Part shown: positions 7,983-63,723 of the stretch, in pieces | Layout of the letters: every line of letters begins with the position of its first letter | How positions within the stretch are numbered: the first letter of the stretch is position 1 | NCBI RefSeq assembly: GCF_011043775.1 | Contig: NZ_JAAKXY010000008.1 | Coordinates: forward strand, 1-64,000 | Length of the DNA stretch: 64,000 bases | DNA from: Natronolimnobius sp. AArcel1 | GTDB taxonomy: Archaea > Halobacteriota > Halobacteria > Halobacteriales > Natrialbaceae | Reading direction: 5' to 3' | Made by a program: the position numbers and the translations under genes | The notes under the pieces: model-generated | The model's database searches: none | Told to the model about the DNA's origin: nothing | Seen by the model: only the letters and a program-made list of their open reading frames with translations

Positions 7983-9505
7983 TTGACATCCTCCACACGA
8001 CTGAAGTCGTGGGATTCCCAACCGCCGTTGGGATATTGTGGTTTACGACGTGACCTGTTCTTGAGGTGCGAACACACCAGTTTCTTTGTCAAACAAGAAC
8101 GTCGATGGCTGTGCCAACCAGCCGTTACTCCTATCACCGTCCTCAGAACGGTTTAGGTTCTGATGTGCGGACGAGACGTTTTGCGTCTCGTCAACGCCAT
8201 CCGTGGCGAGACTCGGAGATACTTTCTGTCGAATGTTCTCAGCACCATTCACATCAGCGTTCGCCACCGCCCCGCAGTTATCGCACACGTACAACCCACG
8301 TTCAACACGGTTCGCATCACGCTTACGACCACAACACGAACACGACTTCGACGTATCCCGCTCGGATACCTGCTCGACCACGATGTCTTCCATCTCGGCC
8401 TTGTATTCGAGTAGGTCGGTGAAACGGTCGAACGCCCACGAATGCAGGTCAAGATTGCCATGTTTGCCCCAGTTCTTCGACTCACCGTTCTCCTCGTCTT
8501 CGCGGATGCCAGAGAGGTCACCCACCACGACCGTTCCAACACCTTCGTCCACACACCGTTCAACGATGTGCTTTGAGAGGGTGTGGAAGTAGTGGGTGCG
8601 GCGAGCTGACTTCGTCTGATGCAACCGAGTTGCTTGCTTGGAGTCGGCGTCGTCACACCGGGCAATTCGCTTGCTGAAGTAGTAGTCGTCCTGCTTCAAG
8701 CAGTTCAACGGGTACAACTCGGCGTGACCGTCTTCGTAGGCGAGCGCAGCGAAATTGTTGATGCCGAGATCGACGCCCACCGTCTTCTCACCGGGTGACT
8801 CGGACACCTCAATCTCGACTTTACAGACGAAGTGTAGCTCCCACTCCTCGTCAGTCCAGACAGCCCGAACCTGTTGGACGCTCTCGATTGTGGAAAGGTC
8901 AACGTCGGGACGAGTCTGGTACTCACAGAGGATAAAATCCGACCAGTGTTCCTTGAGGTTTGACCCCTTTGAGAGTCGAACGCGGTCGTACTGGGTGTCA
9001 AGTTTGAAACCAGCGGCTTTGAACGTGACCGTGCTTCGTGGGTGGTCGTCACCGTGTTTGCGGTAGCCGGGCGGGTTCGCTCGTGTGTCTCCGTTGCGTC
9101 GTTTACCGTACCAACCGTTAAACGCCTCAGCGAGTTCTTGAAGCACTCGCTGACTTGACTGAGAATGCAGGTCATCGTAGCGTTCGTGGCTCTTGAGGTA
9201 CGCGGTGAGTTCGTCGTGTTCTGGGATATAATCGATTTCATCCCAGACACGACTGATTGTCCACCGTCCGATGTTCCAGAGTTTCGACGCGGCGAACCCG
9301 AGCGAATCAAGGTCGTCAGACACCTGTTGCTGATTCCTGATGGAAGCAGTATAGGTGCGGGTGACGACCTGTTTCGCCATACGTAACCTATGTATACAAA
9401 CCTACTTGAAAGCACGGATTACAGAGCGTGGAATATCCTGCCGTGCCATTGAACCGTGGTCTGTGTAGTGGGTTGTCGGATTCATCCCACGACTGAAGTC
9501 GTGGG
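7983..9505 (-). mobile_element. TnpB-only IS200/IS605-type element
   Basis: Both ends carry the same hairpin motif: ACGACTGAAGTCGTGGG at about 8000-8016 and at 9491-9507. The right-end terminus GGATGTCAA (reverse of 7983-7991) recurs at two other element remnants (20,691 and 22,829), marking the boundary. The only gene is tnpB on the minus strand; tnpA is absent, so movement would need a transposase in trans. The element has split a small gene. Ends are accurate to a few bases. Confidence 0.7.
8043..9380 (-). CDS. tnpB: TnpB-family RuvC protein with non-canonical second active-site motif
   Basis: Full-length at 445 residues. The N-terminal half is the helical/wedge region (residues 1-195). 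RuvC-I is GVDLGINNF with Asp204. The zinc finger is C347-x2-C350 and C366-x2-C369. RuvC-III is NADVNGAEN with Asp376. At the RuvC-II position, where other TnpBs in this window read FEDL or FENL, this one has VVVGDLSGIRED, so the usual catalytic Glu is Gly287; Glu294 lies seven residues later. It could use a displaced acidic residue or be cleavage-impaired. A long C-terminal tail overlaps the right end. It belongs to a common haloarchaeal subfamily, so the change may be ancestral rather than a fresh mutation. Confidence 0.88.
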   Translation of the reverse strand: MAKQVVTRTYTASIRNQQQVSDDLDSLGFAASKLWNIGRWTISRVWDEIDYIPEHDELTAYLKSHERYDDLHSQSSQRVLQELAEAFNGWYGKRRNGDTRANPPGYRKHGDDHPRSTVTFKAAGFKLDTQYDRVRLSKGSNLKEHWSDFILCEYQTRPDVDLSTIESVQQVRAVWTDEEWELHFVCKVEIEVSESPGEKTVGVDLGINNFAALAYEDGHAELYPLNCLKQDDYYFSKRIARCDDADSKQATRLHQTKSARRTHYFHTLSKHIVERCVDEGVGTVVVGDLSGIREDEENGESKNWGKHGNLDLHSWAFDRFTDLLEYKAEMEDIVVEQVSERDTSKSCSCCGRKRDANRVERGLYVCDNCGAVANADVNGAENIRQKVSPSLATDGVDETQNVSSAHQNLNRSEDGDRSNGWLAQPSTFLFDKETGVFAPQEQVTS

Positions 9506-9620
9506 CTTTCTCCTCGATGTTCTGTAACCAGTCATCAACTACAAGGAAAGTCAGATCCACTTCCAATGAGCTGGTTGCTCCCAACTCAGACTGAACTCGA
9601 GATTTCGACCGATCACTTCA
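9506..9620 (-). pseudogene. 5' part of the small gene split by the TnpB element
   Basis: The minus strand frame reads SKSRVQSELGATSSLEVDL then TFLVVDDWLQNIEE and runs into the element left-end hairpin. No ATG is in frame: the start is lost or a frameshift separates it from an ATG near 9640. The gap to the upstream RHH gene is only about 16 bases, so it was probably the second gene of that operon. Confidence 0.4.
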
Positions 9621-9635
9621 TAGAATGCGCTGCTG

Positions 9636-10034
9636 TTAGTCATCATCTGATGTCGGTCCAACGTCCGTAGTCGGCTGGTCGGGATCGATGTCCACATCGG
9701 GGAGCGAGGGGAGATTTCCTGCTGGACCCAACATCGGATGTGGTTCGTCCATGAGTTCCATTCCCAAGGTACTCTCCGGGATGGATCGGTTGCTGATCTC
9801 AGAGAGTCGCGACTCCACTTTGTTTTGAGTCTCCTCTTCTACTCCGAAGTTTTCGATGAAGACATCCAACTTAGCGTCGATAATCTCCTGGCGGTACCGC
9901 ATCTCTCGGGCATGAAATCCTTCGAGTAAGATGAGTAGGATCGCTTTGCTAGCAGAGATGTCATGGTATTCTGCGATCGCGTCAATTCCCGCGGCGACAT
10001 CGTCGGGGACATGCGAACTAATATTCCTTGACAT
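9636..10034 (-). CDS. Arc/RHH-like small protein
   Basis: A 132-residue protein: MSRNISSHVPDDVAAGIDAI, then AEYHDISASKAILLILLEGF. This is a beta-strand plus two-helix layout typical of ribbon-helix-helix proteins in the first 50 residues. An amphipathic middle and a Pro/Asp-rich tail follow. It is probably the first gene of an operon whose second gene is the one broken by the TnpB element. DNA-binding regulator or antitoxin is the likeliest role. Confidence 0.55.
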   Translation of the reverse strand: MSRNISSHVPDDVAAGIDAIAEYHDISASKAILLILLEGFHAREMRYRQEIIDAKLDVFIENFGVEEETQNKVESRLSEISNRSIPESTLGMELMDEPHPMLGPAGNLPSLPDVDIDPDQPTTDVGPTSDDD

Positions 10035-10111
10035 TACGATCAGATAATCTCATCCAGACTATTAAACAATTCTCGCCAAATTCCAATGTAGGCACTAGTT
10101 CTACAGACTGA

Positions 10112-10264
10112 ACAGGCCGAGTGCCTCGGGGCTTGACCCCGAGGCGGTTCACGGTCATCGGAGTCATCCGAGACTGTCAATTCCACTCTCAAGCGAAAGT
10201 ACCACCCGCCTCCTCGAGCTGGTCAAGGTGGTCGTGGAGTCGGTCACCGGTCCATTGAAAGAGG
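10112..10264 (+). repeat. solo TnpB-type element end (hairpin) next to ISH3
   Basis: GAGTGCCTCGGGGCTTGACC and its pairing arm (10,121-10,144) make an 8-bp stem nearly identical to the hairpin at 6562-6582 on the other strand. No tnpA or tnpB follows; the ISH3 element begins at 10,265, so the older element was probably interrupted or deleted. Nothing else is recognised in this gap. Confidence 0.45.
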
Positions 10265-11666
10265 TTCAGTACTTCACAAAGCCAGTTAGTTAGAACGTCT
10301 GCTTGCTGAGGATGTGCACTCCAACAAGCAAGCAGACAACGTAATCCACGAAGACCAACTTCTTAACTTTCTCGTCAACCGGCTTGACGAGGAAGTACCG
10401 CTTTCGCTCGCTAACAACGCTGAGATCACTGCTGAAGACATCTATGAGGTCCTCGTCGGCGCGTGCGCCGACGGGACCTCAGTCTCTACGCTGTGTGCTT
10501 CGAGCAAGAACGCACCCGCTGCGAACACAATTCTCTACCATCTCCGGACGAAGCTCGAGCCAGAACGGCTCGAACGAGTCGCTAATACGCTCCTTCGGAA
10601 GGATCTCGATCAACTGCTCTCCGAGCAGGTGGAGGTCTGCGTAGACCTCCATCTGCGGCCCTACTACGGTGACGAAGATGAGACAGATGGGATCTATCAC
10701 TCGCAAGCAAAGCGTGGAACCACTGCCTTTCACGCCTATGCCATACTCTACGCGCGTGTGACAAACAAGCGATTCACCCTGGCAGTGCGCCGTCTCGAAG
10801 ACGGCGACACTGCCAGCAGTGTCCTCGCGGAGTTTCTCGGTGTGCTCGACGGCCTTGACTTCAGCGTCAAGGCCGTCTACCTTGACCGTGAATTCTACGA
10901 CAGCAAGTGTCTCACGGTGCTTCAGGCGCACAATCACGCCTACGTGATGCCGATCGTCCGCTGGGGAAAGGCGATCAAGCAGGAACTCTCCGAAGGCTGG
11001 AGTCGCGTCATCCAACACGAGCTGACGGGCAAACTCGACGGTCACAGCTGGACCGTCGAGTTTCCCGTCTACATCGACTGTACCTACCAGAACGGACGCT
11101 ACGATGAACACGGCGTGGCGCGTCACGGCTACGCCGCTGACGCGCCGTTCATCGACACGCCACGGGACGCTCGATACCACTACGCGAAACGCTTCGGTAT
11201 CGAGGCCAGCTACCGACTCTCCGAGCAAAGCATTGCAACGACATCAACACAAGATCCGGTCGTACGGCTGTTGTACGTTGTGGTGAGCCTGCTGTTGCAG
11301 AACGTCTGGCGGTATCTCCACTGGGAATTTGTGGCGACGCCGCGCCGTGGCGGGCGTCGCCTCTGGTCCTGGTCGTTCAAGGAGTTCATTAACATGGTCC
11401 GACGGGCAGCGTGGACGGCCCTCACGGTGCGTCGGGCCGTCCCCGCGAACCGGCCACCTGATGATCGGTTCCACCGGTAACCGGTGACCGAGGACGCCCT
11501 ATTCGACCAGTGGCAACACCGTCGCGTCGGCGGCTGATCGCCGCCGACTGCGACAGCCTCTCGTCTCTTGTTGCCGGTTAGATTGTCGGAGAACAGATCC
11601 GGCTCTGATTCGTCGGCAAATCAGGCTTCAACACCGTTGGCTGAGACTGAGTTGTGAGGTACTGAG
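10265..11666 (+). mobile_element. ISH3-family insertion sequence
   Basis: The element is about 1.4 kb, bounded by imperfect inverted repeats: TTCAGTACTTCACAA at 10,265-10,279 and TTGTGAGGTACTGAG at 11,652-11,666 (13 of 15 match). It holds one intact transposase gene. No clean target-site duplication is obvious, which suggests an old insertion or recombination between copies. Confidence 0.8.
10314..11480 (+). CDS. ISH3-family transposase
   Basis: 388 residues from GTG 10,314. The sequence follows the haloarchaeal ISH3 transposase pattern: HEDQLLNFLVNRLDEEVPL, DIYEVLVGACADGTSVSTLC, VCVDLHLRPYYGDEDETDG, YHSQAKRGTTAFHAYA, KAVYLDREFYDSKCL and KRFGIEASYRLSEQ. The acidic residues in DLHLRPYYGDED, YLDREFY and RFGIE match the DDE set of this IS4-related group. 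The length is normal and the frame intact, so it may be active. It cuts and pastes using the terminal repeats at 10,265 and 11,666. Confidence 0.95.
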   Translation: MHSNKQADNVIHEDQLLNFLVNRLDEEVPLSLANNAEITAEDIYEVLVGACADGTSVSTLCASSKNAPAANTILYHLRTKLEPERLERVANTLLRKDLDQLLSEQVEVCVDLHLRPYYGDEDETDGIYHSQAKRGTTAFHAYAILYARVTNKRFTLAVRRLEDGDTASSVLAEFLGVLDGLDFSVKAVYLDREFYDSKCLTVLQAHNHAYVMPIVRWGKAIKQELSEGWSRVIQHELTGKLDGHSWTVEFPVYIDCTYQNGRYDEHGVARHGYAADAPFIDTPRDARYHYAKRFGIEASYRLSEQSIATTSTQDPVVRLLYVVVSLLLQNVWRYLHWEFVATPRRGGRRLWSWSFKEFINMVRRAAWTALTVRRAVPANRPPDDRFHR

Positions 11667-13250
11667 GTTGTCTTTATCCGTCCCTCCAAGGAGGAGGACC
11701 GGTGCATCGTCATACGACCAGTACCACGGGTTCTCGGGACTTCGACGGACTCGATCAGTCATATCTCGTTACTCCCGAGTAGAGGGGATAAATCATTTGA
11801 TGCGTACAATAGGAGTAGAACCTGACAGTATACGTAGTGGGGTTGGTGGACTGGTGACAGACACGTTCGAGTCAAGAACGAAGCGATAGATAAGCAGCTC
11901 TCATTGGCCGACTGTTTCAGATGAGAATATGTCTAAAGTCAGTAACTACGAAATCGAATCGAAAATCCATTTCTCACTCCAATATGGACTTCTATGCAGA
12001 CCTTCTCTTGACGAAATGTGTGGATGTCAACAACGTGTGAGTCGGGTGGGAGAGTTAACGATCAGCAGTTGTACAGATCTCTTGAAATGGGAAACCGCTT
12101 TTCCTCTCCCGATACTACTGTCTCTGCGTCCGCCGCCTGCAGCTACCCTACTTCCCACATCTCTCCTGAAAATGTCTCCTCCGGAAGAGAGATTGCATCT
12201 TCCTTCGCAAGCTCGTGAACCGAGTTCCTTTGCGGCCCTGCGTTGGGGTTTCCACTCGTTGTCGATGATTCATTGTTGGCGACCATCGGCGGTACTTCCT
12301 GACCTATACCCACAACTCGAGGACGGCCAACCTTCCTCGCTGCGTTGCTGCCAGTTCGATGCTGCATCGACCCTCGCGATGATTCGGCCGGGTGGCAGTT
12401 TCTCGAATTGTGCTGACCAGCGCTACTCCTCATCCGGTACTCGTACTGACTACTCGAGGTTGAACTTCTCATCCTACCTCGAGTAGGTGAATCCTCACAC
12501 TGCCACGACCCAGTCAAATCCTCCACGTCGCTAACTGAGGTTGAATCCTCCACGTCGCCAAGCACCTTCGGGAATCCATTGCAACCCTGTAGCCTAATCC
12601 CCCACTCCCCAAAGCCAGGCAGACCCCCCTACCGTCGCGCGCGGCGGCGGCGTTGTTCTCCTCCCCCTTCGACGCTGTTGGAATCTCACCCCTCCCAATG
12701 CAGACTGTACTTCGGCGGTCGTCGCGATGAGTCGGTCCCGGTCTCGAGTTGTCTCCAGACAGTTCCATCTCGAGTCGTCGCCGGTTGGTCCAGTCTCGAG
12801 TCTACGTCAGCTCAAGGTGTCCCCTATTCTCGTCGACGGCCCGACCCCACCTGCGTCTGTTGCCTCCACCTCGAGTTTTCTGTGACTCCTCTGTCCTCGA
12901 GTCAGTGTTCACTCGTTCACCTTCCATCCTCCTCGGTCGACCCTCTCGAGGAGTACCCCCTGTCCTGGCCGTCCCGATCGCGTCGGTTTTCGATCTAACA
13001 TCCACTCTCGACCATCCCCCAGGCACACGTCATTGACCTCGCCCAATCAAACGGCCCCCTCCTCGAGCTAACAGCGGAACTACTGGGGTCGCTGGCATCA
13101 ACTTCTCATGTCCAATCCTCGCAAATCAAAACTCCCCCACCTCTGTATCAGATAACTGAGAGGCTCAAAATTTAGTATCTCCCCCGACTCCCAAATCAAC
13201 CATCGGTCACTCGGCTCCGCCTGATTCATTCGCTTGGCGTCTCACCATCT
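11667..13250. other. gene-poor stretch, pyrimidine-rich on the plus strand
   Basis: No convincing gene in about 1.6 kb. Longer open frames (for example 11,929-12,486 plus and 12,143-12,565 minus) have unnatural, low-complexity products and no family resemblance. From about 12,480 to 13,090 the plus strand is markedly C/T-rich with many CTCGAG and TCCTC words. A short direct repeat AATCCTCCACGTCGC occurs at about 12,513 and 12,545. It may be decayed plasmid backbone or an origin/transfer-linked region of the element that carries the ATPase at 14,312. Confidence 0.4.
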
Positions 13251-14000
13251 CATGAGGTCTACCCTTGAACAGTAATACTGTAATTTCCAAACCTTATGAG
13301 ATACGGGTCGTGTGCCATATTAGAGAGTCTATAAAGCCCTCTGAGGCCGTAAAACCTTATGAGATAGGATTATGGGGTAGGGGTCGTCTATAGAAAACCC
13401 CTCGTATTGCACCGCCGTATGGCTATTACAAAATTGGTAGAATATAATTAGTAAAGTATATGGGGTGCGTCTTAAGTCACCCCCGTACTACTATAACCAC
13501 TACAACTGGAGTCGTAATTATATTCTATAGGAGAACGCCTCAAATCCGACCACGTCCCCCTATATCGTATCCTATAGACACACCCCTCTATTGGATCCCC
13601 GTATGGCTATTACAGAATTCGATTTTTGAACGAACACCTTTGGACACCTGAAGCCAATGGCTATAGAGAAGACCCGCTATCTGGACCCCGTCTTGCTATT
13701 ACGGATTCTATAGAAAAAGGTGCAAAACGCGGCCCCGTCTGTCTATAGAAATATATCCTCAAATCGACCATCACACGGAGAGGGTTAGATTCGTCCCTAT
13801 AGGAAATACCTCCAAACGCGCCGCCGTATGGCTATTACAAGTTCTATAGAATAACCCCCATATTACAACTACGTCTTGCTATTATTGTAGATATGAGTCT
13901 ATCAGTTTACCATATTTCTTACACAACCTCCGATTTCTGATATCCGCGACGCCTGAATTGCGATTGTGATTTGGATTTTTTTAAACTAATTCCGCTATAG
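13251..14000. repeat. degenerate CTATAG / GGCTATTAC repeat array
   Basis: An AT-rich non-coding array. CTATAG occurs exactly at 13,388, 13,525, 13,572, 13,661, 13,708, 13,743, 13,797, 13,844 and 13,995, usually followed by an A-rich and then C-rich run (GAAAACCCCTC type). Between these sit GTATGGCTATTACA (13,418, 13,601, 13,827) and GTCTTGCTATTA (13,690, 13,873). An earlier pair CCTTATGAGATA is at 13,292 and 13,353. Spacings of roughly 35-140 bases are irregular, so this is not a CRISPR. One more unit lies on the other side of the ATPase gene at 18,182-18,226. Confidence 0.65.
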
Positions 14001-14007
14001 GAATACC

Positions 14008-14190
14008 ATGGTATTGGATAAGGAATGGTCTATGGAACAGGGTCAGGAATGGTCTATGGAACAGGGTCAGGAATGGTCTATGGAACCGGGTCAGGAATGG
14101 TCTATGGAACCGGGTCAGGAATGGTCTATGGAACCGGGTCAGGAATGGTCTATGGAACCGGGTCAGGAATGGTCTATTGTGACTCACTGA
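14008..14190 (+). CDS. 60-residue octapeptide-repeat protein (EWSMEPGQ) n
   Basis: An ATG at 14,008 follows a TATA-like TTTTTTAAAC by about 25 bases, fitting a leaderless start. The product is MVLDK followed by seven copies of EWSME(Q/P)GQ (the last incomplete) and a stop. The repeat is exactly in register with the 24-bp DNA repeat, so it stays open in more than one frame (the next frame gives VYGTGSGM repeats, the minus strand FHRPFLTR). Coding is therefore unproven. It sits between the CTATAG array and the 3' end of the ATPase gene. Confidence 0.35.
   Translation: MVLDKEWSMEQGQEWSMEQGQEWSMEPGQEWSMEPGQEWSMEPGQEWSMEPGQEWSIVTH
14021..14177. repeat. 24-bp tandem repeat, about 6.5 copies
   Basis: The unit AGGAATGGTCTATGGAAC plus six bases repeats at 14,021, 14,045, 14,069, 14,093, 14,117, 14,141 and 14,165. 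Copies are almost identical, with one A/C variant dividing the first two from the rest, so amplification is recent. It contains TCTATGG, reminiscent of the CTATAG motif of the adjoining array. Confidence 0.9.
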
Positions 14191-14311
14191 GCCTCTTTGT
14201 AGCCATATAGAAAATCAGTCGTGTGAATGCGTTAGCCCAAGAAACAATATTGGGATGGGAAATGAAGAAGCGAGTCGGGTATCTAGTGTGTGTTAATGTA
14301 GAGGGTGCATC

Positions 14312-17300
14312 TCACTCAACCATCTCTCGGAGGTTGTTTATGCCCAGGATTTTGCTTGCCCCGGGATCGTCCAAGGTTTCATTGATCTTTTCGAAGCTTC
14401 GGGTGCCTTTGGATGGTGTGTCTTCGAGCTTGTTAGACAGACTATTGAGGAGGGTTTCCGCCCCATCGTAGTTCTCCACGACCCAAATGGCATCCCCATA
14501 CCCTTCCGCGAGTTTCTCGTAGTCTCCTTCTACGTGTGGGCGATGTTCAGGAGTGATCTCAACTTCCACTAACTTGGCAGAGTTGTCTGGTGACTCTTTG
14601 GTGTCCTTCGCATAGACATCCAACTTTTGACTGTTGTCTCCATTTTCGAGGGTGTGGTACATGGAGACGTCGTAGCCCTGTTGATCATAGTAGGTCGCTA
14701 TAAGCCGTGTACCTATCCGGTGGAGAGGTGACTCCCCACCATATTCACCTCCTTCTTTAGGTGAGAGGTCTCTGTCGAGTTCCACTTGCGCTTTTTCTGT
14801 GGGATAGTAATATACTTGGTAGCGCCCAAGATGAATCTTCTCAAGGTACTCTTGGTCAACGAGGTCTTCTGCATACTCACTCCAGTGAAGCTCTTTCATC
14901 GGCTGTGCTAGAGTATAGTTTTTCACTCCGTCTGTGAGGGCGTCAAAGACCATCTCGAGGAAAGCAATTTCTTGGTGGGAGAGTTCAGTGTTCGATGCTC
15001 GAGCAGACTTTGTGGGTTCATCAGGTTCGTTCTCCTCACCAGCTGTGGCGATCCGAGTCCCACTGGTGTCGTCGATTGCCTCGTGGTCCCGACTGAGACA
15101 GTGCCGTTCACGGCTGCGCCTTCGGACTAGTTTGGTCTTAGGGGAGACCTCAAAGGGGCCTTCTTTGTGACCTGGGGGAATAGGGAGGGGGCGGAGTGTC
15201 AATATCTCGGGTTTGGACTCATGGAACCCTGTGGATGGGAGTTGGACAACCCATTCCCCACGGCGAAGGCCGGCAATCCGATCTTTGATCTCCTCTGTTT
15301 CCAGATCTTCATGGAACAAGGACTCGGCTAGCATATCGTCCGTCGCGATGTTGCCGATGATCTTGGTGTTGACGTTGTTGAGAATCTCCTTGTAGGCCCG
15401 ACGGTTGGCATGTGGATCTTCTCCCAACACTTGTTCAGGGTACTGCATGATCAGCCCCAGGGACAAGTTGAATTCACGCCCTTTGGGGAGGAGTTCGTTG
15501 TAGACGATTTCGTTCCGGGCCACGTCCGAACTCTCTTCGATGATGACGTTGGTGATGTAATCTTCACTGTTGGGCGTCCAAATGGATTGCACCGACGTCC
15601 ACAGGTGCGAGAGAAAGAGAACGGTGAAGATCTGACTACTCTGTGATCGCAGGTTCCCGGTGTCGAGGATCAGCACCTTGTTGGAATTGAGGATGTTCTT
15701 CAGGTCGAGCATTGGTATTTCCGAGTGGTCATACCAGTTGTTCTCATCGTCCCAGTATTCCTCACTGATTGTGTACGAGAGCATATTCCAGATGAAGTCC
15801 CGCTCCTTGAGTTTCCGGATCCGGTTTAGTACTGCGTCTGTCGTGTTCATGAACTGGGTCTGGTCCTTTGTGAGGTGGGACTCGAGGATGCTCCTGACCT
15901 GACTGTCGGTGGTGCGAGGGATGGCCTTGTTGACCTTGTCTGCGTCCTCTACAGCATCTTCAACTTCTTTCCCCCACTGTTGGAATTGTTGTGCAGCTTC
16001 CATCAGTTCACCAATGGAGAAGTAGTCGGTGCCGTAGTTGCGGTCGAACTTGGCTTTGATGAGGTTCTTGAGGATTTCATTGGCAACGAATGCCTGATCA
16101 ACGGTGTCTCTCCCAAGGACGAAGCGCAAGACCTGAAAATAGTGATCCGTGATATCTTGAATAGCCGCTTCACGTTCTCGGCCTGCACCTCGAGTAAGGG
16201 GTCGCAAGTCGAAGAAGGGCATCCCTGGTATCTTCCCATTCTTTTCAGGGATTTGGATGTACTCGACGTCCTCTAGGCTACCGAAGAGTGTCCGGTGGCA
16301 CCGGAGATAGTTCTCACACATGTCCCCGTTCTTGGGGTCGATCAAGATGAGGGGTCCATCGAGGTCCTGATGGGCAGTGAGCATATCGTTGATCGTGGCG
16401 ACGGTTTTCCCACTCCCGGTCGTTGCCGCTCTGATGTAGTGGTGGGTGAGGTCACTAGCTGACAACGAAAGGGCATCCCTATGGTTGATCTTTTGGGTCC
16501 ATTCGTTTTTGCTTTCGATGGCGCTGATGTCAATAGTGTCCTGGTCATTATCACGGATGGCGGTGACTGCATGACCGATGGTCATCCCGTTGGAGAATTT
16601 TTGGAACACCTCTTCGTTAGGAGAGGTAAGTGGGGATTGGGCTGCCGGAAGTCCACCTGTCCCTCCTCGAGAGGCTTTTGGGAGGGAGTCAATCGAGGGG
16701 ACCGTGATGAAGCTGGCGAGTTCTTTGATGTTGCATACCAGCATAGGTTTCCGTCGGGTGATCATCTCCCACCCAGTGGGGTACGTCAGAGCGTGCTTCA
16801 GCATCCGCTCATACTCATTTTTATGCTTGCCCAAGTATTTGCCTTCGATGGAGTAGAACTGGCCACTGAGTTGGTTCAGTGAGTCCTGTAGGTTCTGAGC
16901 GCATTTCTCTTGGGAAGTTGCTGCCCGAATAGTCAAGTTGTACGTGTGTGCGGGGTCCTTCAGGTCAATCTGAGCCATTCGGCTGGTCCCTGATCGCGGA
17001 CCTGCTGTTTGTGAGTCGTGGATGGTGCCCCCGATCTCATGTGGAGTGTCCCCACGGTGACGTTCTTGTTTCTCCTCTTGGCTGACGCCGAAGAGGGCGT
17101 CGATAAAAGACCGAAGCATGAGGCCGGCTGTGCTGTGGACGCCTTGCTTGAGGTTGCCTTTGTGCCGTTCTGCTTTCCGAGACCAATCAGCTCGTGGCTC
17201 GAAGACCATTTGGATTAGCACCGTCCCTTTCGACTGGACAATGGTCTCGAGCATGTTCGAGAGAGGGGATCGGTCACTGAGGTTGAGGTCGAAGGTGGTG

Positions 17301-18052
17301 AGTGTGGTCATCCAGTCCTTTCGCCTCTCTTCAATGCCGTCAAACCGAACCATATGCGGAACTGATTCGAACTTGTTAGTGATGTCGAACTGATCTCGGT
17401 CAAATTCGAAGTTTTCGGGATACTGTGAACGGGTTACGGACTCGAGGCGATCACAGTCGACGTCCCCCTTCTCACCGGGTCCAAGGTAGAACTTGAATTG
17501 GGGTTCTCCTTTGGGTTTGTAGATGATGAATTCAAAGTTGGTCATCCCCTCGATGCTGTCGATGTGCTTTTCCATATCCAAGGGGAGTTTTCGCCCCGAT
17601 CCGTATCGATGAAGCCCATAGAGTTCTCTGGTTACGGTTTCAGAATTAATCTCCTCTCTCACAGGAGTTATCCTGATATACTCTTGGTTTGATTCGATTT
17701 CTTTGATGAAATCTTCAGTGTCATCGTTTTCGCTGCCTCTCTCTTCCTCACCCGGCAGGTGTGGGCTAATAGGAGACGATTCAGGAATATCTTTTCTAGA
17801 CTGTCTCGAGGGTGGGTTTTCCCACTCCCCTTCTACATCTGATGAGGGATCTTGGTCGGGCGATCCTTGATTAGGTGGGTTGTCTGGGGCCGCCTGTGGG
17901 TCTGAAGATGGGGAATCATCTTCAAGACTAGCTAGGTATTCACCTTGCTTGAAAGGGTCAATCAGATCGTTTGATTCGGACCTTTGAGTCTCAGTCGAGC
18001 GCGGTTTTTGAGATGGGCGATCATCTTTCTTCTCTTCTTTTTCTCCTGTCAC
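14312..18052 (-). CDS. VirB4/HerA-like conjugation-type ATPase fused to wHTH and PD-(D/E)XK-like domains
   Basis: A 1246-residue protein. Residues 1-130 are disordered and charged. A P-loop appears at about 540-550 (AATTGSGKTVATINDML), followed by LILIDPKNGD (about 575), a candidate Walker B pair LILDTGNL (about 794) and VIIEESSDVARNE (about 835), and a late GLIMQYPEQV segment, the order seen in VirB4/TraC/HerA DNA- or protein-pumping ATPases. Residues about 1050-1110 look like a winged helix. The end (about 1125-1220) has TYYDQQGYDV, then KLDVYA and LVEVEIT, a D...ExE/K arrangement resembling a PD-(D/E)XK nuclease fold. It is likely the motor of DNA transfer for an integrated plasmid-like element. 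No other secretion gene is nearby. Both flanks carry the CTATAG repeats. Confidence 0.75.
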   Translation of the reverse strand: MTGEKEEKKDDRPSQKPRSTETQRSESNDLIDPFKQGEYLASLEDDSPSSDPQAAPDNPPNQGSPDQDPSSDVEGEWENPPSRQSRKDIPESSPISPHLPGEEERGSENDDTEDFIKEIESNQEYIRITPVREEINSETVTRELYGLHRYGSGRKLPLDMEKHIDSIEGMTNFEFIIYKPKGEPQFKFYLGPGEKGDVDCDRLESVTRSQYPENFEFDRDQFDITNKFESVPHMVRFDGIEERRKDWMTTLTTFDLNLSDRSPLSNMLETIVQSKGTVLIQMVFEPRADWSRKAERHKGNLKQGVHSTAGLMLRSFIDALFGVSQEEKQERHRGDTPHEIGGTIHDSQTAGPRSGTSRMAQIDLKDPAHTYNLTIRAATSQEKCAQNLQDSLNQLSGQFYSIEGKYLGKHKNEYERMLKHALTYPTGWEMITRRKPMLVCNIKELASFITVPSIDSLPKASRGGTGGLPAAQSPLTSPNEEVFQKFSNGMTIGHAVTAIRDNDQDTIDISAIESKNEWTQKINHRDALSLSASDLTHHYIRAATTGSGKTVATINDMLTAHQDLDGPLILIDPKNGDMCENYLRCHRTLFGSLEDVEYIQIPEKNGKIPGMPFFDLRPLTRGAGREREAAIQDITDHYFQVLRFVLGRDTVDQAFVANEILKNLIKAKFDRNYGTDYFSIGELMEAAQQFQQWGKEVEDAVEDADKVNKAIPRTTDSQVRSILESHLTKDQTQFMNTTDAVLNRIRKLKERDFIWNMLSYTISEEYWDDENNWYDHSEIPMLDLKNILNSNKVLILDTGNLRSQSSQIFTVLFLSHLWTSVQSIWTPNSEDYITNVIIEESSDVARNEIVYNELLPKGREFNLSLGLIMQYPEQVLGEDPHANRRAYKEILNNVNTKIIGNIATDDMLAESLFHEDLETEEIKDRIAGLRRGEWVVQLPSTGFHESKPEILTLRPLPIPPGHKEGPFEVSPKTKLVRRRSRERHCLSRDHEAIDDTSGTRIATAGEENEPDEPTKSARASNTELSHQEIAFLEMVFDALTDGVKNYTLAQPMKELHWSEYAEDLVDQEYLEKIHLGRYQVYYYPTEKAQVELDRDLSPKEGGEYGGESPLHRIGTRLIATYYDQQGYDVSMYHTLENGDNSQKLDVYAKDTKESPDNSAKLVEVEITPEHRPHVEGDYEKLAEGYGDAIWVVENYDGAETLLNSLSNKLEDTPSKGTRSFEKINETLDDPGASKILGINNLREMVE

Positions 18053-18384
18053 GTTTGACTCTGAGTTCGAAGGCCATTAATAAATTACGGCCAACTTATG
18101 TAAGTATAAATTCGTTAGCGAATTGGAGATTCACCTCTATGAATCTCCCACAGATTGTTTCCCGTTCCCGTATAACGGATCCTATTGAGAAAATCCCCCG
18201 ATCCGACCCTATACTGCTATCGTATTAGGTGTCTAATCTGATGTGGAGGTTCCGCCTTGAGGGTGGAAAATTCTCCTCGAGGACGATGTGAAATTTGTTG
18301 GAGTTGCATTGCTAGTAATTGAGGGTCGCGCGTGAATCAGAATTAGGCTGGTCACCCTCAAGATAGGGCAAACGTTCACCCAGA
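18053..18384. promoter_or_regulatory. upstream region of the ATPase gene with one copy of the array repeat
   Basis: Reading away from the gene start, AT-rich sequence (TTAATAAATTACGGCC, TAAGTATAAATT) gives plausible TATA boxes for the minus-strand ATPase gene. At 18,182-18,226 the sequence CTATTGAGAAAATCCCCC, then CCCTATACTGCTATCG, copies the two-part unit of the 13.3-14.0 kb array. The remainder to 18,384 shows no gene. Confidence 0.5.
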
Positions 18385-18441
18385 GAGTAATGTTCAATGA
18401 AATTTTTAGTTTTTGTTACAGCCATACAGACGTAAATAAGC
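18385..18441 (+). repeat. dispersed repeat, copy 1 (probable TnpB-element left end)
   Basis: GAGTAATGTTCA, a T-rich stretch, then ACAGCCATACAGACGTAAATAA. It matches 22,899-22,955 in order, spacing and most bases. A decayed TnpB C-terminus follows about 50 bases downstream, so this is probably the left end of that element family. Confidence 0.5.
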
Positions 18442-18486
18442 TGTTGTGGGTTGGACAAGTGCAAAATCTCGTTGTCCACAGAATTG

Positions 18487-18760
18487 CGAGCCAAGTGCCA
18501 CGAGATTTGACCTCGAGATGGGACACTGCAGGGACGGCGGTTCCGCTGTACGAACGACGAGTGTAACGTAGTGCAAGACCACGCCGACCGGAACGCATCG
18601 GTGAACATCGCGTGGCGCGAGAAGGCAAAACTCGACGGCAACGATTCGGATTACCGGACTCACAAAACCCAGCCGCAGGTGCGGTTGGTGCGTCTGTCCG
18701 GGTCGGGGCGTGTAAGTCGCTCACCCTCATCCCGTTCCCTCGCGGAATAGGGAGTGCTAG
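18487..18760 (+). pseudogene. TnpB C-terminal remnant
   Basis: The plus strand reads RDGTLQGRRFRCTNDECNVV then QDHADRNASVNIAWREKAKL, which is the second zinc-finger half and RuvC-III region (D in DHADRNASVNI) of a TnpB. The N-terminal three quarters are missing and a stop lies just upstream of RDG. A CGAGGCT-type hairpin near 18,788-18,812 probably marks its right end. It is non-functional. Confidence 0.65.
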
Positions 18761-20197: not shown

Positions 20198-20695
20198 GTG
20201 GCGAACAAGAAACCGACAACGCACGACTTCGACTTCGGAGGATATCACTACTGTCGTGAGAAATGGTTAAATTCCAATATATTCACCCACCGTCTCGCGT
20301 GCGTCTGTGAGGAGTACGGTATCAGCCTCGAGGTCAAGTCAGAGTCGTGGACGAGTCAGACGGATCCCGAGTGTGGCGACCACGAGGAGACGATTCGCCA
20401 CGGGAATACGCTAACGTGTCCGTGTGGCTTTGAGGGGAACGCTGACCTCGTGGCTTCAGAATCGCTCCTGAGACGGCAGACAGTAGAAGTACGGTCGATG
20501 GCACGGCCTGTGTACCTCAAGTGGAACAATCACGATTGGCGGGAACACCATAGCCCGCCCTCCATCGCGGAGACAACGGCCAACGAGGAGTACACAAACC
20601 AAAGTACCGCTTTGGGCAAGAATATCGCTCTCGGGGACTCGGACGCCTGAGACTCCCTCGAGAGGAATCCCGCGACTTCAGTCATGGGTGGATGT
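20198..20695 (+). pseudogene. TnpB C-terminal remnant with right-end hairpin
   Basis: An open frame from GTG 20,198 gives [20 protein letters not shown], then [30 protein letters not shown]: the zinc finger and RuvC-III (NADL) of a TnpB with the rest missing. The right end follows at 20,668-20,695 as CGCGACTTCAGTCATGGG ending GGATGTCAA, a decayed form of the hairpin of the 7983-9505 element. The remnant abuts, and supplies the stop codon of, the convergent gene at 20,682. Confidence 0.65.
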
Positions 20696-62695: not shown

Positions 62696-63723
62696 CTGAG
62701 AACACACCAAACCCGAACGCGTACTACGAGCAGCTCAACCCACTGCGAAAGACCGTCGACTCACTGCGAGAAAACGCGATGTCCCACAGCGATCTTGCAG
62801 ACAACATCTACCAGGTCCGACAGTGTCTCTTCCTGGTCGCACTCAACCTCCAGGAGGCACGTGAGATACTCCCCGATCCGGACCCAGCAGCCGAACTCAA
62901 TACAGAACAGGACGACTGGGAGGAATACGACGAGGCTATCCAACAGATCGAACGCCGACTCACAATCTGTCACGAACTGGCACAGAACGAACACCCCGAT
63001 GAGTACCGCTACAGCGAATCCCCCGGAGAAAAATTCGAATCCGCACTCTCAGTGATCAGAGAGCTTCGCGACCTCCTCCCCGGCGTCGACACCAACAGCC
63101 CCCTCGAGATTGACCTAAACACCAAAGATGCGACGTACGCCCACGTCGAGGGCCGCGGCCAAGGCGATGGACGCTGGCTCGAGTACCAACTCCAGCGGGC
63201 GTTCAGACGCTGGGGCTACACCGCCGACACTCGCCAGACAGCGTTCAGCCTCGAGGTCGACGTCGTCGCCTGCCGGACCGAGAAACAACACGACCCTTCA
63301 GACTGGCTCGTCGCCCAGTGTAAAGACTGGACCAACGACACGATCACCCCGGGGACGATCTACCGACTGTGTACCGTGGCGTTTGCCTGCCGAGCAATGC
63401 CCGTCCTCTGTCATACGACCGAACTCACGACCCGCGCTGAACAACTCGCCCGCCATCTCGAGGTCCGCGTCCTTGAACTCGAGGATCTCGCACGTGGTGA
63501 CCTCCCAGCACCGAAGACCACGACCCCCTCCTCGGATCTCTATGAGTACTCCGCGGAGTGGACGGCCCGCAAAAGCCGCGGCACGCTTCCCGTGATGTTT
63601 GCCACCGAGCCAGGCAAGCGCTTTAGCTACGTCCCCGGGTTCGAACCCGTCGGAAACGGCTGTGAATACAAACCCGTCGACGACGACCTCGACGATGACA
63701 CCCACCCCGCCGCCGGTCACTGA
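62692..63723 (+). CDS. Mrr-type restriction endonuclease-like nuclease linked to HRAMP
   Basis: 343 residues. Residues 1-130 are helical (QVRQCLFLVALNLQEAREIL). Residues about 155-270 form an Mrr-type PD-(D/E)XK domain: GDGRWLEYQLQRAFRRWGYT with Glu164, TAFSLEVDVVAC with Asp190, and DWLVAQCKDWTND with Gln209-Cys-Lys211, the D...QxK signature. RAEQLARHLEVRVLELEDLA is the usual closing helix/strand. The literature description of HRAMP includes various nucleases beside the Cas5/Cas7 homologues; this gene fits as the predicted effector that cleaves invader DNA. It is separated from the Cas5-like gene by 143 bases containing the leader ORF. Confidence 0.82.
   Translation: MTENTPNPNAYYEQLNPLRKTVDSLRENAMSHSDLADNIYQVRQCLFLVALNLQEAREILPDPDPAAELNTEQDDWEEYDEAIQQIERRLTICHELAQNEHPDEYRYSESPGEKFESALSVIRELRDLLPGVDTNSPLEIDLNTKDATYAHVEGRGQGDGRWLEYQLQRAFRRWGYTADTRQTAFSLEVDVVACRTEKQHDPSDWLVAQCKDWTNDTITPGTIYRLCTVAFACRAMPVLCHTTELTTRAEQLARHLEVRVLELEDLARGDLPAPKTTTPSSDLYEYSAEWTARKSRGTLPVMFATEPGKRFSYVPGFEPVGNGCEYKPVDDDLDDDTHPAAGH

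Follow-up and report, generated by a model that had tools for sequence, protein, structure and literature searches.

We describe a non-coding array of eight 46-nt units that lies just 3′ of a translocase-like ATPase gene in the window (the whole stretch of 64,000 nucleotides from Natronolimnobius sp. AArcel1 that was analysed) and recurs beside homologous genes in other haloarchaea. We favor the possibility, to which we would give an even chance, that the array is a plasmid recruitment site acting like an oriT/relaxosome array and bound by a lineage-specific ribbon-helix-helix (RHH) protein. Little is known of how plasmids and integrated elements of haloarchaea select their DNA and move it; the array offers a defined site in cis, together with candidates for the binding protein and the motor. 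In the literature that we searched there was no earlier description of the eight-unit array and no haloarchaeal origin of transfer. The features of the locus are collected in the table.

Features of the array locus (positions within the window)
Feature	Position	Strand	Basis or remark
RHH protein, 132 aa, predicted box-binder	9636..10034	-	synteny, homology, predicted fold, strand-box covariation
Transposase ORF between array and RHH gene	10314..11480	+	clusters with annotated ISH3-family transposases of locus L038
Eight-unit array, non-coding	13385..13886	-	motif-blind layout scan and unit table
Unit 8	13385..13430	-	
Unit 7	13453..13498	-	weakest; no exact CTATAG; predicted from layout
Unit 6	13522..13567	-	paired with unit 5
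Unit 5	13569..13614	-	
Unit 4	13658..13703	-	paired with unit 3
Unit 3	13705..13750	-	
Unit 2	13794..13839	-	paired with unit 1 at 47 bp
Unit 1	13841..13886	-	TAATAGC box left, CTATAG box right, core between
Translocase-like ATPase, 1246 aa	14312..18052	-	predicted motor fold related to VirB4, TrwB, HerA, DndH
Single extra unit 5′ of ATPase start; possible operator	18179..18224	-	array-matrix score

In each unit a left box (TAATAGC) and a right box (CTATAG), 35 bp apart, enclose a core (AGACGG..GATT..GGGG). The original prediction had seen a degenerate array with irregular spacing. Its raw counts were real: nine exact CTATAG sites at 13388-14000 (0.46 expected, at most 4 in 5000 replicates of a first-order Markov model of the same region) and five GCTATTA sites at 13422-13878 (0.09 expected, at most 2 under the same null). 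Its description of the order was wrong, as the unit starts, followed along the minus strand, are strictly spaced at 47-89-47-89-47-69-68 bp. The window as a whole shows no enrichment of CTATAG, with 10 sites where 6.1 are expected; the significant part is the local clustering. In a motif-blind layout scan the array scored 51.6, compared with 23.9 or less for shuffles (three per locus) and 21.5-24.6 for real loci that lack an array. The array model matched only the eight units in the 4.56-Mb genome; an even scatter of the motif, which would have spoken against the prediction, was thus not seen. A CRISPR has near-identical repeats and spacers of about constant size, whereas these units are internally divergent and their spacings follow helical turns; comparative evidence likewise backs the predicted reading as protein-binding rather than CRISPR DNA. 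Outside the eight units lie the ninth CTATAG (13995) and a 24-bp tandem repeat (14021-14177). An Rfam scan of 12500-18700 gave no match within the array; at 18650-18700 there was only the first part of a sot2652 match, scoring under the gathering threshold.

A further unit, predicted to lie upstream of the ATPase start, also proved real. Its boxes, CTATTG at 18182 and CTATCG at 18217, start 35 bp apart, precisely the distance seen in the array. With a matrix built from the array the unit scored 22.1 bits, whereas the null reached 12.4 at most. No counterpart was found in the ATPase upstream regions of relatives, and a general operator role for this unit was therefore dropped.

The array was found just 3′ of the homologous ATPase gene in 15 of 15 distinct testable haloarchaeal loci (ATPase homologues at 65% identity or more), at a distance of 0.2-1.5 kb; loci L053 and L094, which run out at a contig edge or close to it, fall outside this set. 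The proposed link to the ATPase thus held in every close relative that could be tested. Among loci the unit spacings are either fixed or altered by whole helical turns (68, 79-80, 89-90 bp), and this precision, kept across haloarchaeal families, is at odds with the earlier suggestion of a decayed multi-copy element. Box types vary among lineages (CTATAG, GTATAC, TAATTA, TAATGA, TAAATA and others), being alike within one locus and different between loci, whereas the core is conserved in both respects. L041 represents the GTATAC lineage and L054 the TAATGA lineage. Because the boxes change, ordinary similarity search all but misses the arrays: when the array region was compared with plasmids by plain blastn, one faint match came back.

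Arrays were present in 29 of 391 genomes, in lineages that include Halobacterium salinarum R1, a laboratory organism (plasmid PHS2), and intact layouts also occurred on chromosome-sized contigs (L061, L099, L117 and L118). Haloarcula sinaiiensis is a further carrier, and in H. salinarum R1 the ATPase gene is interrupted. ATPase families at 30-45% identity, including the paralogue on contig C7 (L004), were without an array in the layout scan, and a cruder repeat scan revealed nothing comparable beside them either. Truncated ATPase copies (L043, L044, L045 and L066) also had none, and L046 has retained its array next to a broken ATPase. A full-length cognate ATPase was missing from 16 of 25 array-bearing genomes and an RHH homologue from about half, which argues that an array can be maintained in cells that lack either one.

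The ATPase is predicted to contain a RecA-like motor, and its Walker A sequence, TGSGKT, is invariant; together these point to the VirB4/VirD4/HerA translocase superfamily. The predicted motor aligned with VirB4, TrwB, HerA and DndH at Z 16-19 over 295-378 residues (rmsd 3.6-4.8). Family-model matches were all under curated cut-offs: DUF87 in 5 of 27 members and, weakly, the TraD coupling-protein model in 11 of 27. With TIGR03743 at 14.5 bits against a cut-off of 366, the protein is not classed as a TraD-type coupling protein. A search of solved-structure sequences gave just one weak helicase match, Pfam gave none for the C-terminus, and a PHROGs search yielded nothing useful.

The candidate box-binder is encoded after the array in most ATPase-linked loci; in the window this conserved order is interrupted by a transposase ORF, itself without a Pfam match. 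Its model places helices at 11-24 and 28-62 behind an N-terminal segment, a predicted strand-helix-helix topology typical of RHH proteins, and its top structural matches are RHH proteins (probability 0.98, TM 0.80 to target, E 0.26). Pfam RHH_1 did not match the window protein and matched 4 of 13 relatives weakly (best E 0.0097); a sequence search of solved structures with the small gene returned no RHH protein. Statistical support for a connection with the boxes comes from moderate covariation between the predicted DNA-reading strand and box type (partial r 0.43, p 0.04, n=9 non-redundant). A strict pairing is ruled out by L104 and a 57-kb plasmid, where strand type and adjacent array are mismatched.

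A plausible scenario is that, on plasmids and integrated elements of haloarchaea, the array serves in cis as a site where a nucleoprotein complex assembles. An array offers 16 near-palindromic boxes; linked RHH dimers would occupy these and pair over the 12-bp step that separates neighbouring boxes of 47-bp-spaced units; since unit spacings are approximately half-integral numbers of helical turns, the boxes could form one ordered complex. Recognition of the invariant core may fall to a second partner that stays constant, possibly the ATPase or a protein of the host. The assembled complex would then recruit or orient the adjacent VirB4/TrwB/HerA-class translocase, which would move the array-bearing DNA molecule, most likely during transfer between cells, so that the array would act as does the stretch of an oriT bound by TraM or SmpO, or as does clt in Streptomyces. 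Our reasoning for this is that: (i) the array lies 3′ of the ATPase in all testable loci, with the RHH gene after it in most; (ii) spacings shift by whole helical turns, and boxes vary between loci around a constant core; (iii) RHH strand and box covary; (iv) the motor resembles VirB4, TrwB and HerA, with weak TraD matches and (v) arrays that lack ATPase or RHH, two arrays on one plasmid and an array swap all match staphylococcal oriT biology. Several observations count against recruitment: neither a relaxase nor a secretion channel was identified among the neighbouring proteins scanned, ATPase family matches are sub-cut-off, two loci have a mismatched RHH protein, many array genomes are without RHH or full-length ATPase, and orc1/cdc6 and ParA lie near arrays on several plasmids, as they might for a maintenance site.

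Of the three roles originally suggested (replication, partition or transfer), none is singled out, and the evidence tilts toward a transfer- or recruitment-type site. The main rival is segregation, which we think unlikely though it deserves serious weight: the RHH protein would be a centromere-binding protein like ParR, omega or SegB, and the ATPase or a plasmid ParA would move or resolve copies. Plasmid partition typically uses RHH proteins bound to phased arrays, and the parC/ParR and delta-omega sites, where an RHH protein sits on phased plasmid repeats, resemble our array with its predicted reader. In contrast to these systems, no actin-, ParA- or tubulin-type NTPase adjoins the array, and the linked NTPase is translocase-like. 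In a ParA-type partition locus the NTPase adjoins the site; here a distance of ~8-17 kb separates ParA, which sits beside other small genes, from the array on three complete plasmids, and no ParA match was found on the window's 108.8-kb contig, which may belong to a larger replicon. The restriction of arrays to 29 genomes, and the survival of intact layouts on chromosome-sized contigs and in genomes without an RHH homologue, also weigh against segregation. That ParA lies within this range of the array on complete plasmids nevertheless counts in favor of segregation. Proximity to orc1/cdc6 (~2-15 kb on four plasmids of relatives) also fits segregation and, together with phased multi-copy sites and an RHH protein, would equally suit replication iterons, which would belong to a plasmid origin or control copy number by handcuffing, the RHH protein being a CopG-like regulator. 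We consider this improbable, as the array is not adjacent to orc1/cdc6, as sites of an Orc1/Cdc6 origin would be, is missing near orc1 on most plasmids in this class of genomes (29 of 391 with an array), and has a translocase-like ATPase as its consistent partner. Moreover, two arrays of different type can share one plasmid, and on PHS2 no orc1 is annotated within the 49 kb examined around its array. The window's contig carries only an orc1 fragment (C8:67927).

A marginally better, still improbable, alternative to replication is packaging, in which the RHH-bound array would tag plasmid DNA that the ATPase then loads into virus-like particles or plasmid vesicles. The VirB4/HerA-like ATPase ORF25 of pR1SE-like plasmids is proposed to recruit plasmids into vesicles, and some of these plasmids have repeats just after ORF25, near-identical (>=25 bp, at most one mismatch) and taken as possible origins (PMC10818511). 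Structural alignment also matched our ATPase to B204, a packaging NTPase (Z 10.4), and the C-terminal part to a nuclease-like fold (Z 8.9). ORF25 and our ATPase, both described as VirB4/HerA-like and both from haloarchaeal plasmids, may be counterparts; the array units are divergent where the pR1SE-like repeats are near-identical. Against packaging, no relative of the ATPase was found on viral contigs. A large operator whose sole role is to regulate the ATPase gene, or a repeat element in decay, we regard as very unlikely. The single upstream unit would suit an operator; eight units whose helical layout is fixed, lying 0.2-1.5 kb 3′ of the gene, go far beyond operator needs, the layout is maintained across families, and units have not spread in this genome.

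Precedent for the recruitment site that we favor comes from three systems. In Streptomyces, clt is a non-coding repeat locus beside the gene for the FtsK/HerA-superfamily translocase TraB, without a relaxase, and TraB itself reads its 8-bp repeats. Our array is likewise non-coding and beside a translocase gene, with no relaxase among the neighbouring proteins scanned; unlike clt, it has a separate RHH protein as its likely reader, and its units are 46 nt and helically phased. On the F plasmid, TraM bound to several sites (sbmA-C) beside oriT links the DNA to the VirD4-type ATPase TraD (PMC12117103). The haloarchaeal locus shares with this arrangement a predicted RHH-type accessory DNA-binder, multiple sites and an ATPase to which the DNA would be linked. 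It differs in that no TraI-like relaxase, IHF or secretion channel was found among the neighbouring proteins scanned, TraM is no sequence homologue of the RHH protein, and the 1246-aa ATPase has an extra C-terminal domain.

The closest parallel is the staphylococcal pWBG749-family oriT, where the RHH factor SmpO reads 6-10-bp near-palindromic sites spaced 65-67 bp apart; the sites fall into several subtypes, with specificity set by the N-terminal strand and replacement by recombination (PMC8136818). Near-palindromic boxes at fixed spacing, several subtypes and an RHH reader, predicted in our case, are common to both, whereas the staphylococcal oriT has two SmpO sites against 16 boxes and belongs to a Gram-positive host with known relaxase and secretion genes and proven function, where ours is inferred. 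Orphan 'mimic' sites occur on staphylococcal plasmids without transfer genes, with two or three subtypes per plasmid (PMC8136818). More tentatively, the array may be a haloarchaeal transfer origin of exchangeable specificity, whose 16-box phased RHH array would load a VirB4/HerA-class translocase without a classical relaxase, with array-only plasmids being mobilisable. The natural box types and RHH variants amount to a ready-made specificity-switch experiment, and the array offers a sequence tag for tracing haloarchaeal plasmids that may travel together. Like the staphylococcal mimics, arrays occur without ATPase or RHH, two to a plasmid, or swapped; in one replacement event the flank is 98.8% identical.

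The nine CTATAG and five GCTATTA sites behind the original prediction lie within 750 bases, far in excess of a local Markov null, and when they are read along the ATPase strand, eight units with a common design emerge, in which a TAATAGC left box, an AGACGG..GATT..GGGG core and a CTATAG right box follow each other, the left-to-right box distance being 35 bp. Searched at E<=1 against the whole genome (a 4.56-Mb haloarchaeal draft in which the window forms bases 1-64000 of a 108.8-kb contig, C8), a model built from these units recovered the same eight, all downstream of the ATPase gene, and no others. The 24-bp tandem repeat in the stretch separating the array from the ATPase stop codon was not found at the equivalent place in relatives.

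The array is nearly invisible to ordinary blastn, and the same structure was reached through homologues of the ATPase. It lies about 0.2-1.5 kb past the ATPase stop codon on plasmids of Halorubrum ezzemoulense, Haloarcula sinaiiensis and Halobacterium salinarum (where an insertion element splits the ATPase gene), and likewise at further loci. At distinct loci where the homologue reached at least about 65% identity, had a complete 3' end and was followed by enough sequence, an array was present in 15 of 15 (the window and homologous loci L036, L037, L038, L040, L041, L042, L054, L056, L057, L059, L061, L065, L099 and L118). A motif-blind layout scan scored 37-60 in testable loci versus 21.5-24.6 in array-less ones; the L118 array was detected separately, by the unit matrix. 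Other ATPase subfamilies (30-45% identity), common in the order, lack this array, and a pan-lineage array model matches 29 of 391 genomes of the class, a few through a single partial match. We regard the array as practically certain to be a genuine cis-element, conserved and organised by protein.

Units are paired at 47 bp, with spacers of 68, 79-80 or 89-90 bp and two final steps of about 68 bp. Unit starts are thus spaced 47-89-47-89-47-69-68 in the window, 47-68-47-68-47-68-68 in L105 and 47-69-47-89-47-69-67 in L038 and L121. Spacings above 55 bp are restricted to 67-70, 78-80 and 89-90 bp, with a single exception of 65, and their best period is 10.8 bp (range tested, 8-16 bp). Taken at 10.5 bp per turn, these longer spacings have a mean phase of 0.52 turns, against 0.48 turns for the 47-bp step; neighbouring box starts are 12 bp apart across the 47-bp junction and 35 bp apart within a unit. 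Spacing changes of whole helical turns are those that a rigid protein-DNA complex would permit.

Box columns are near-invariant inside one locus and differ among loci (column 7, 1.68 bits within locus versus 0.21 pooled; column 39, 1.40 versus 0.16), whereas core columns are conserved both ways (column 13, 1.88 versus 1.80). A selection from the longer list of consensus left/right boxes is: TAATAGC/CTATAG (window), GTATAC/GTATAC (L041), TAATTAC/TCATTA (L037), TAAATAC/TATATA (L036, L095, L096), TAATGAC/TCATTA (L054), TAATCGC/TTATCA (L059), TAATTAC/TAATTA (L065) and TATTCAC/TATTCA (L105). Loci L104 and L098 are 98.8% identical outward from the array edge and carry unlike arrays, so the array appears to have been swapped through recombination.

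A small conserved gene downstream of the array encodes a predicted ribbon-helix-helix (RHH) protein; in the window, a transposase gene that clusters with annotated ISH3-family transposases separates the two. The predicted structure has a strand-like N-terminus followed by two confident helices, and the structures it matches best are of the RHH class, Arc, CopG, AmrZ and MatP among them; the shortness of the domain keeps the E-values weak. RHH proteins contact DNA bases through alternate residues of the N-terminal strand, and here these residues vary with box type: NSH in the window, HTR with GTATAC, KSY with TAATGAC, RGM or QSM with TAAATAC, RSY with TAATTAC/TAATCAC, and NSY/NTH with TAATCGC. 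With rest-of-protein distance removed, strand distance followed box distance at a partial r of 0.48 (p 0.0004; 14 loci, some close relatives), 0.43 (p 0.04; nine non-redundant ATPase-linked loci) and 0.35 (p 0.02; two mismatched loci added). This covariation between sequences supports, without proving, an RHH-box pairing, and the RHH protein probably binds the boxes. In relatives, the tract between array and RHH gene reaches 76% purine over 400 bp.

In the ATPase (1246 aa), TGSGKT is invariant. The modelled motor (residues 372-850) matches DndH, VirB4, TrwB and HerA at Z 16-19; model alignments to full-length VirB4 begin at the N-terminus, with poor rmsd. Against family models the ATPase scores below every cut-off, with weak hits to TraD coupling proteins, HerA and CedD. 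The last 140 residues are predicted to resemble AF1548 (Z 8.9), which has a restriction-endonuclease-like fold, and the invariant D1145, E1163 and E1165 would be compatible with a nuclease-like site.

Many arrays lack these partners: a full-length cognate ATPase occurs in only 9 of 25 other array-bearing genomes tested and a strong RHH homologue in 14 of 26 (the L118 genome has none), and the layout is preserved in genomes without ATPase or RHH. The H. ezzemoulense Fb21 megaplasmid carries a TAAATAC array beside its ATPase and a second one of TAATGAC type, and the 57-kb plasmid of this strain has two TAATGAC-type arrays and no annotated ATPase copy. A third protein family, with no Pfam match and no member in the window's genome, is encoded directly upstream of many arrays, including ones without ATPase and RHH, and is a candidate reader of the constant core.

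Among the DISCRIMINATING roles of the array, we favor a recruitment site for the translocase in transfer or mobilisation, to which we give about an even chance; it is the best reading because it accounts for the switching of subtypes and for orphan arrays as well as for the link to the ATPase. These orphans, subtypes and swaps parallel the staphylococcal oriT family, where RHH-read sites are split into subtypes, swapped by recombination and, on plasmids that lack transfer genes, present as mimics (PMC8136818). A role in maintenance draws on the position of the array about 2-15 kb from orc1/cdc6 on four complete plasmids and, on the three of them in which ParA was seen, about 8-17 kb from that gene, which makes it part of the plasmid backbone; on the H. 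salinarum R1 plasmid PHS2, no orc1 is annotated within the 49 kb examined. A centromere or an iteron, however, demands a binding protein in the same cell; unless a different protein stands in, either role is hard to square with intact arrays where the genome has no RHH homologue and with those on chromosome-sized contigs (L061, L099, L117, L118). We consider a segregation site unlikely and replication control quite improbable, with a packaging site only slightly less so than the latter. A search of the openly searchable literature turned up no account of this array or of any haloarchaeal transfer origin. The components are of known kinds; the phased eight-unit design with exchangeable boxes beside an archaeal VirB4/HerA-class ATPase appears to be new.

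Coordinates of the array and associated features (window positions unless a locus is named)
Feature	Position	Remarks
Array	13385-13886 (-)	eight 46-nt units
Unit 7	13453-13498	no exact CTATAG; position as the layout requires
24-bp tandem repeat	14021-14177	AGGAATGGTCTATGGAACCGGGTC; 6.5 copies, 99% matches; includes CTATGG
ATPase gene	14312-18052 (-)	
RHH gene	9636-10034 (-)	
Transposase gene	10314-11480	
Purine-rich, G-skewed tract, ATPase strand	12000-13385	also L036, L037, L038, L042, L061
TnpB/OrfB-type transposase	8043-9380	OrfB_IS605 and Cas12f1-like TNB domains
Shorter ORF	20198-20650	TNB domain only
Partial Rfam match	18650-18700	sot2652 (sense overlapping transcript)
Unnamed gene homologue	58645-59169	
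Unnamed gene homologue	62713-63720	by eye, looks like a PD-(D/E)XK nuclease
L118 array	9513-10128	ten units; beside 67% ATPase; 2.2-Mb contig
Second array	L042:2600-2640 region (G135:C5)	
Second array	L065:6312-6632	
Third protein family	L037:11216-11773	homologues in L036, L041, L056, L106, L110, L117
119-nt repeats	L049:6031-6338	two, 77% identical, 189 bp apart

Several further observations were made. In L042 and L065, the element that carries the first array has a second one, of different or related box type, a few kb away. At L118, two ParB-like genes lie close by on the opposite strand, and the array-downstream genes are found at 2-4 kb. The L049 repeats lie at the 3' terminus of the gene for a more divergent ATPase (39% identity), and L050 has similar ones. 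Two unnamed genes that in many relatives follow the RHH gene have their window homologues about 45 kb from the array. Finally, the partial sot2652 match suggests a TnpB-element remnant.
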